Virus record (IMG/VR): IMGVR_UViG_3300046170_000202
Location: 1-30,454 of that record
Direction: 5' to 3' (one strand)
DNA from: a virus
DNA: 30,454 nt
The notes beneath the pieces were generated by a model, which ran no database searches, was not told where the DNA came from, and saw only the letters and a list, made by a program, of their open reading frames with translations. Positions 11,475 to 12,808 of the stretch are shown piece after piece (the first letter of the stretch is position 1; each line of letters starts with the position of its first letter). The position numbers were made by a program, and so were the translations under genes.

Positions 11475-11867
11475 ATGAATGAGTTGGCACTATTTGCAGG
11501 GGCTGGAGGAGGAATCCTTGGAGGTATGTTGCGAGGGTGGAGAACCGTTGCCGCCGTTGAAATCGAAGACTACCCAAGAAGGGTTCTTCTGCAACGGCAA
11601 GCTGACGGCCTCTTACCTAGATTCCCTGTCTGGGACGATGTGCGAACCTTCAATGGAACAGAATGGAAAGGGAAAGTTGACATTATTACCGGAGGGTTCC
11701 CCTGCCAAGATATTTCATGCGCCGGAAAAGGAGCTGGAATTGACGGCGAGCGAAGCGGTATGTGGGGAGAAATGGCGCGAATCATTGGTGAAGTTCGACC
11801 TAGACACGTTTTCGTGGAAAAACTCACCAATGCTTGTGGGAAGAGGTCTTGCCAGAGTTGTTGGTGA
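11475..11867 (+). CDS. Methyltransferase N-terminal ORF (motifs I-IV)
   Basis: As sequenced, the N-terminal ORF is 130 residues. It contains the S-adenosylmethionine site (ALFAGAGG) and the catalytic GGFPCQDIS. The last 15 residues (after FVE, about KLTNACGKRSCQSCW) are out of frame and not methyltransferase-like. Alone it would lack the target recognition region and should be inactive. Confidence 0.65.
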   Translation: MNELALFAGAGGGILGGMLRGWRTVAAVEIEDYPRRVLLQRQADGLLPRFPVWDDVRTFNGTEWKGKVDIITGGFPCQDISCAGKGAGIDGERSGMWGEMARIIGEVRPRHVFVEKLTNACGKRSCQSCW

Positions 11868-12316
11868 CCTTGCCAAAATGGGGTTTAATTCAAAATGGGG
11901 TATTGTGGGAGCGCACCACGTTGCCGCGCCTCACAAGCGCGACAGAGTCTGGATCATGGCCAACACCGAGAAGTTGCAGCGCGATGGCAGCAAGGATAAC
12001 GCCAGAAAGTTGCCACAATCCAAAGCGGCATCCCAATCTAGAAACAATGGTTGGGAGGGCGATGTGGCCAACACCTTCAGCAAGAGATTGGAAAGATTCT
12101 CCAGGGATGGCGAAAAGCTCAATAAATCAGGACGGGACAAAACGAAACCGGTTAGACCAACTACCTCGACAGATTTATCACGAAAACCAAACTGGTGGTC
12201 TTCTGAACCCAAATTGGGTAGAGTGGCTAATGGGGTGGCCTGTAGGGTGGACAGACTTAAAGCCATTGGAAACGGACAAGTTCCAGCAGTGGCAGCGCTT
12301 GCATGGGATATTTTAA
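11834..12316 (+). CDS. Overlapping-frame ORF with a second methyltransferase-like C-terminus
   Basis: A 160-codon ORF overlaps the methyltransferase 3' half in a third frame. It is not a random shadow: it carries SWPTPRSCSAMAARITPES, MWPTPSARDWKDS and LLNPNWVEWLMGWPVGWTDL followed by KPLETDKFQQWQRLHG. That pattern is familiar from the C-terminus of other phage cytosine methyltransferases. The same bases in frame 1 encode the equally recognisable RVDRLKAIGNGQVPAVAALA. One of the two is thus the displaced version of the other, or both are used. The N-terminal 40 residues are probably not translated separately. The family link comes from memory of these phrases and is not computed. Confidence 0.5.
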   Translation: MWEEVLPELLVTLPKWGLIQNGVLWERTTLPRLTSATESGSWPTPRSCSAMAARITPESCHNPKRHPNLETMVGRAMWPTPSARDWKDSPGMAKSSINQDGTKRNRLDQLPRQIYHENQTGGLLNPNWVEWLMGWPVGWTDLKPLETDKFQQWQRLHGIF

Positions 12317-12368
12317 GCAAAGGAAATCACGCCTTAGAATAAAAAACTAAAAAAGTTTAAAATAGGTG

Positions 12369-12405: not shown

Positions 12406-12808
12406 ATGACAGTAATTATTAAAGAAAGCCAAGAGGCCCAAGACCTCAGAGAGATAACTGAAGACATCATTGACCCGCAAAGGGGCAATTAACCTCGCAA
12501 TGGTTAAGCCTCACTTGCCTAGCTATTATAGCTTTAAAGCAATCAAGAAGGCTTTGGATTATGACGAGATTCGCGTAGTGATAGAGTCGGCTCTTTACGG
12601 CTCTGATGAAGATTACGAATACATCGTTTCTTATTCTGATGAATACATCGGGTGCGTTGAAGAAAGCCACAAATGTTTTGAAGACGCCAAGCGAGATTTA
12701 GACGCATTAAGCGAAATGAAGGAAGAGGGGCTTACTATACTTCGCGCAAAAGTTGGCGGCGATTATACTCATGCGCTAAATGGCAATCAATGGATTAAAT
12801 TTTGCTAA
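12406..12808 (+). CDS. Unknown acidic protein, probable G-run frameshift near its start
   Basis: ATG 12406 opens MTVIIKESQEAQDLREITED but stops after 28 codons. The next frame carries a long ORF, with possible starts TTG 12470 and ATG 12500: MVKPHLPSYYSFKAIKKALD, then ALYGSDEDYEYIVSYSDEYI, ending at 12808. Removing one G from GGGG at 12482-12485 joins them as DIIDPQRAINLAMVKPHLP, giving one protein of about 133 residues. It is acidic and helical in its C-terminal half, with no known family. If the break is real, the working gene starts at ATG 12500. Confidence 0.5.

Follow-up and report, generated by a model that had tools for sequence, protein, structure and literature searches.

Two nested +1 reading frames in a phage genome as the likely subunits of a C5 cytosine methyltransferase

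The question raised by this locus is why a single segment of phage DNA should read, in two overlapping frames, as proteins related to cytosine methyltransferases. The window, meaning here the whole stretch of DNA analysed, corresponds to an entire IMG/VR record of 30,454 bases, in which tailed-phage terminase, head-tail adaptor and tail genes are present. A preliminary description had drawn attention to positions 11930-12342, where both frames were taken to encode recognizable C5 methyltransferase C-termini, and had proposed that these were alternative ends of one ancestral protein, generated either by overprinting or by a frameshift leading to two products. Both frames are indeed present, but the arrangement extends well past that segment and is of a different nature. 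Instead of alternative C-termini, the region 11475-12342 contains the genes of two proteins, whose frames are related by +1: alpha, which is a C5 methyltransferase, and a second one, denoted here as beta ("B"). Their conserved starts are found 4 nt apart (the alpha ATG at 11475 and the beta ATG at 11479), and beta is wholly nested inside alpha.

The two frames and the extra base in the window

In translation, the frame 11479-12342 reads APHKRDRVWIMAN...RVDRLKAIGNGQVPAVAALAW, and the neighbouring frame 11834-12316, open for 160 codons as had been stated, reads MWPTPSARDWKDS...LNPNWVEWLMGWPVGWTDLKPLETDKFQQWQ and also contains WPTPRSCSAMAA. The first frame gave significant matches to PHROG 363 and 32758, and the second to PHROG 1008, 26627 and 35493, the latter being likewise significant and independent of those of the other frame. 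When each frame was compared by tblastn with 50,697 phage records, both led to the same loci, which they matched in different frames (examples are Acinetobacter phage OQ471969, the record MW202733 and Salmonella phage S9-5). Homologs thus exist for both frames and not for a single one, in agreement with the preliminary description. The features of the locus are as follows:

11475..11487, + strand: paired start ATGAATGAGTTGG, with the alpha ATG at 1 and the beta ATG at 5 (MNEL / MSW) and codon bias at alpha codons 2-4
11475..11867, + strand: alpha N-terminal piece with motifs I-VI (FAGAGGG, GFPCQD); PF00145 6e-19, PHROG 363 3e-38
11479..11822, + strand: beta N-terminal piece (MSWHYLQG...SPAKIF...KFDLDTFSWK), matching PHROG 1008 and overprinted on alpha motifs I-VI
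11807..12316, + strand: beta C-terminal piece, with a putative target recognition region WPTPRSCSAMAA...MWPTPSARDWKD followed by the tail; stop at 12316
11818..11822, + strand: A5 run with one extra base that disrupts both ORFs, absent in L001, L002, L003 and L004
11824..12342, + strand: alpha C-terminal piece (ENSPML..., motif VIII, neutral linker, motif X)
11926-11952, + strand: alpha motif VIII (APHKRDRVW)
12203..12256, + strand: beta motif IX (LNPNWVEWLMGWPVGWTD), by hhalign to the canonical motif IX
about 12244-12306, + strand: alpha motif X (RVDRLKAIGNGQVP)

In the window record, alpha starts at ATG 11475, goes out of frame at the A run and stops at 11867. A single surplus base in the A run at 11818-11822 is the sole reason why the alpha N-terminal part (11475-11867) occupies a third frame, and the same base explains why the ORF finder joins the reading 11479-11822, which matches the N-terminal part of PHROG 1008, to the frame carrying motifs VIII-X. 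Indeed, over 6482 bases the window and the otherwise identical L002 show 0 mismatches and two one-base insertions, both in the window, and in L001-L004 the two ORFs are uninterrupted over their full length (288 residues for alpha and 278 for beta in L001). A frameshift does exist in this record, but it is a one-base insertion located upstream of 11930-12342. The second insertion, a C at 12474, falls near the start of a small ORF (12470-12808).

Distribution of the pair and selection on the second frame

Viral loci retrieved with the alpha N-terminus only carried a beta homolog in the +1 frame in 79 out of 79 cases, beta being interrupted by a stop in one of them (L143), and bacterial and archaeal genome loci retrieved with the beta profile had beta within an alpha gene in 80 out of 80. 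Beta was in +1 with respect to alpha in 163 of 163 loci. The pair was also present throughout a batch of 18 cultured-phage loci picked by similarity to either frame (18/18), whose hosts belong to about 15 genera, including Bacteroides, Lactobacillus, Pseudomonas, Salmonella, Klebsiella, Mycobacterium, Gordonia, Vibrio, Porphyromonas, Synechococcus, Nodularia, Stenotrophomonas, Microcystis, Escherichia and Paenibacillus. The split layout was found in three members (Zaka, Lilbooboo and ICleared) of a smaller phage set, picked by the alpha N-terminus; two others (Streptococcus Javan117 and Curvibacter PCA1) have a canonical or divergent gene that lacks beta, and Lactococcus CHPC1175 is a mixed case. 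Across 20 host genomes, the canonical C5 methyltransferases presented chance-level +1 stops and no beta, and the phage-type ones all had it; among plasmids, alpha matched in 376 records and beta in 3. Stand-alone beta genes were found neither in viral or genome contigs nor in phages or plasmids. The pair thus recurs among the phages of numerous bacterial groups, and it has been widely mislabelled or overlooked.

The +1 frame of 161 loci contained 274 stops, a number that fits roughly two flanking stops in each locus, versus 907 expected from the synonymous-codon permutation of alpha, and the +2 control frame showed no such deficit (2446 observed versus 2223 expected). Moreover, the similarity of beta between diverged loci was 7-17 SD above the synonymous-permutation null. 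With changes classified according to what they do in each of the two frames, the +1 frame of 59 independent pairs yielded a dNN/dNS of 0.44 (0.37-0.51) and a dSN/dSS of 0.35 (0.32-0.40), and the +2 frame 1.43 and 1.01, respectively, all of them being ratios of uncorrected counts with few doubly synonymous (SS) sites. The +1 frame of other ORFs from the same loci, which served as a control, gave values that are somewhat below 1 too (0.86 [0.77-0.96] and 0.74). The alpha linker contained 0 stops, versus 306 expected from permutation of the beta codons, which does not count as evidence since the loci had been preselected for an intact alpha ORF. Beta is under purifying selection, and both frames are open, conserved and constrained.

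The beginning of beta is strongly conserved. The alpha Asn2 codon is AAT or AAC in a proportion of 135:2, versus 557:915 elsewhere in the genes; GAG occupies codon 3 in 141 cases and GAA in 8, and codon 4 (Leu4) ends in TG in 135 of 164. This codon choice at alpha positions 2-4 preserves the beta ATG-AGY-TGG (MSW) start. The beta ATG is maintained even where alpha begins with GTG or TTG, a combination in which beta holds its ATG four bases on and which is common (e.g., L028, L047 and L211); such alpha starts suggest that beta might be made at a higher rate. As a change from AAT to AAC at alpha codon 2 would be silent for alpha and would abolish the beta ATG, this reading is directly testable.

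Motifs carried by each chain and how the pair may work

The constraint is unevenly distributed along the two proteins. Among 38 pairs, alpha was tightly constrained over motifs I-VIII (0.18, which corresponds to motifs I-VI, and 0.26), with beta being less so (0.58, again for motifs I-VI, and 0.50). From motif VIII to the tail, alpha was approximately neutral (0.94 [0.81-1.06]) and beta constrained (0.39 [0.30-0.51]). Contrary to what had been proposed, the two tails belong to two different proteins, and past motif VIII the alpha frame is a near-neutral linker. It is in this part that ordinary C5 methyltransferases carry their target recognition domain, or TRD (PMC3404938).

Alpha matches the PF00145 profile (3e-31) and contains motifs I, IV (PC), VI (EN), VIII (RxR) and X of the C5 methyltransferases. 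In 91 sequences P76 C77, E115, R155 and R157 were invariant, and N116 and the GN of motif X nearly so. A TRD and a motif IX are missing from this chain, as indicated by hhalign, by the pLDDT values and by the neutral variable region. The AlphaFold2 model of alpha displays residues 1-170 mostly with a pLDDT of 87-98, residues 179-259 with about 43 and a motif X helix reaching 96, that is, a complete large domain without a recognition domain, and its best PDB matches were M.HaeIII and M.HhaI over about 171 columns, which correspond to the large domain. In hhalign comparisons, the canonical-enzyme profile covered motifs I-VIII of alpha and, with a weak match, motif X, but found no counterpart of motif IX there. 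Its only alignment with beta placed the beta tail on motif IX, with a score of 19.0 versus a maximum of 15.8 in 120 column-shuffled beta profiles (0/120 reached it), although this alignment is short and its E-value by itself is 0.13. In the window, beta motif IX is immediately upstream of the alpha-frame motif X and overlaps with it. The AlphaFold model of beta alone, based on an alignment without three rows from phage records, was poor (mean pLDDT 58, pTM 0.27) and found no fold match. As beta also gave no match in Pfam, NCBIfam, PADLOC or PDB sequences, the candidate identification of beta as a restriction enzyme or other known enzyme was discarded.

Natural variants provide a further clue. 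A regex count over 261 loci revealed motif X in the alpha frame together with motif IX in beta in 221 of them, motif X in the beta frame only in 8 and in both frames in 0, with each of the remaining loci failing one pattern. In L136, L065/L067, L050/L152 and L053, alpha stops shortly past motif VIII (203-266 residues), and beta, which is longer there, has in its own frame the recognition region followed by motif IX and by a motif X such as RVDRLKAIGNGQVP. Similarly, in the actinobacteriophages Krili, Geodirt, Zaka, Lilbooboo and ICleared, beta contains the TRD, IX and X in one frame and the genes are staggered; in Krili, Zaka, Lilbooboo and ICleared, both genes bear the annotation 'DNA methylase' or 'DNA methyltransferase'. 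This complementary placement of motif X would represent, at the level of sequence comparison, the strongest hint that both chains form one enzyme. The Lactococcus phage CHPC1175 (L302, 1230-1724) displays another combination, in which alpha has canonical motifs IX and X in frame and the +1 ORF has a canonical recognition-domain start (LSDILEENVDEKYFLS), a stretch of 30 residues with 60% identity to the canonical recognition domain (E 5e-8).

Considering these observations, we find it likely that a C5 cytosine methyltransferase made of two polypeptides is encoded at this locus, with both of its subunits in overlapping +1 frames. In the proposed model, alpha would be the catalytic large domain, made of motifs I-VIII with motif X packed back onto it, and beta would supply the target recognition region and motif IX. 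The order in the DNA (I-VIII, TRD, IX, X) would then be the canonical one, with the TRD-IX segment being read in the other frame and alpha passing through it as an unstructured linker leading to motif X. Beta would be translated from ATG 11479, bind alpha, in an assembly that we infer, and complete the DNA-recognition side, thus being presumably needed for methylation, and the pair may methylate the phage's own DNA against host restriction. Concerning its origin, the N-terminal half of beta was probably overprinted on alpha motifs I-VIII, since the family of alpha is older and wider, and the TRD-IX part may be an old domain shifted to the other frame by compensating shifts. From the two routes initially contemplated, the existence of two products and the overprinting, for this half of beta, are retained, but a frameshift does not appear to be their normal source.

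An alternative is that beta is a real overlapping protein with a function of its own, such as a regulator or an anti-restriction protein, and not a methyltransferase subunit. Its own conserved start and constrained N-terminal half would suit such a protein, as would the lack of an assigned fold and of any Pfam, NCBIfam or PADLOC match. However, alpha is devoid of a TRD and motif IX whereas the beta tail aligns with the latter, stand-alone beta genes were not found among the sequences searched and, in 8 loci, motif X is present in beta and absent from alpha, which is sensible only if beta completes alpha. We therefore regard a separate function as unlikely.

Poly-C runs are found at the junction between motif VIII and the recognition region in four contigs (C11 at 3422 in L089 and at 2326 in L096, C10 at 3491 in L100 and C18 at 59 in L279). 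With C11, the N-terminal part of alpha runs into the beta tail, and with C10 the N-terminal part of beta runs into the alpha tail. These runs possibly reflect phase variation or an assembly error. They would also be compatible with programmed frameshifts that fuse the two frames into a single chain (alpha I-VIII, beta TRD-IX and alpha X) of exactly canonical order. Such a chain, however, would need two shifts in opposite directions, and it would have no use for the strongly preserved beta ATG and MSW start or for the constraint on beta upstream of the junction, so that this possibility appears quite improbable. Finally, that the second frame is a passive, untranslated shadow of a conserved methyltransferase gene, as could be thought from the confinement of beta to methyltransferase genes and from a 'DNA methyltransferase' label that can stem from the overlap, is contradicted by the codon-permutation, start-codon and selection tests and by the lack of beta in canonical methyltransferases, which led us to reject it as having a negligible probability.

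Returning to the two-subunit model, a broader proposal would be that these loci constitute a very widespread class of phage C5 methyltransferases with catalysis and recognition in overlapping frames, whose specificity or activity would phase-vary in some lineages through the poly-C runs (C10, C11 and C18). We consider this extension conceivable, though doubtful.

Relation to known systems and annotations

The closest precedent is M.EcoHK31I, whose small polypeptide, according to what Lee, Kam and Shaw reportedly described in 1995, comes from another reading frame of the large gene. Beta is read in this way in the window, and M.EcoHK31I is likened to it by its described layout. In this enzyme, from E. 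coli HK31 (YGGCCR), the large polypeptide contains motifs I-VIII and X, motif IX is found in a second, smaller one, and the predicted TRD was assigned to the large subunit (PMC3404938). The window likewise has motif IX in a separate chain, with the large one holding motifs I-VIII and X. It differs in that selection and structure place the TRD in the small polypeptide, in that beta covers almost the whole alpha gene and in that the layout is spread over phages of many hosts. In the case of M.AquI (CYCGRG), the large subunit carries motifs I-VIII and part of the variable region, and the small one the rest plus motifs IX-X (PMC3404938). The actinobacteriophage loci L286, L287, L299, L300 and L304, as well as the variants L050, L053, L065 and L136, have the layout of this enzyme. 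In contrast, the window and most of its relatives keep motif X in alpha and have fully nested genes, motif X being in the small subunit in the 8 related loci mentioned above and in further actinobacteriophages.

With respect to annotated families, alpha belongs by profile match to the PHROG 363 / PF00145 C5 methyltransferases, but without motif IX or a folded TRD. Beta or its tail matches PHROG 1008, 26627, 35493, 27243 and 31772, which are labelled 'DNA methyltransferase' or of unknown function and do not record the overlapping partner. The same nested ORF was noted by the depositors of the Paenibacillus larvae phages Sitara and Lily as a 'g59/g62 internal gene', which was annotated as hypothetical, with no link to methyltransferase motifs or to other phages. 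The ShiLan paper, also considered as a precedent, concerns an HNH ORF within an insertion in a phage methylase and is a different matter. No description of a phage-wide overlapping C5 methyltransferase pairing was found in the searchable literature, consistent with the remark in the preliminary description. As far as this literature goes, the breadth among phages, the near-complete nesting and the evidence for a recognition region read in beta are new.

To our knowledge, double-stranded DNA phages seldom have genes that overlap over their full length on the same strand. If the two-subunit model is true, many of the phage C5 methyltransferases that figure as single genes in annotations would be half-enzymes, with their recognition subunit unannotated or mislabelled (PHROG 1008), and this could account for failed expression or specificity assignment of phage methyltransferases. 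The locus would also offer a natural system, in which selection restricts a DNA segment in one frame and leaves it free in the other, for studying the origin and upkeep of overlapping genes.

Three individual loci deserve a brief comment. In L033 (2643-3386), an in-frame stop near 2964 breaks alpha and beta remains open. In the prophage of E. coli ECCTRSRTH03 (L298, 601-1770), alpha appears in RefSeq as two incomplete pseudogene pieces, and both frames are open on translation. In the Escherichia phage vB_VIPECOMC04 (L295, 1175-1987), what is annotated as 'DNA methyltransferase' (phrog_1008) corresponds to the beta frame, and no annotation covers the alpha frame.
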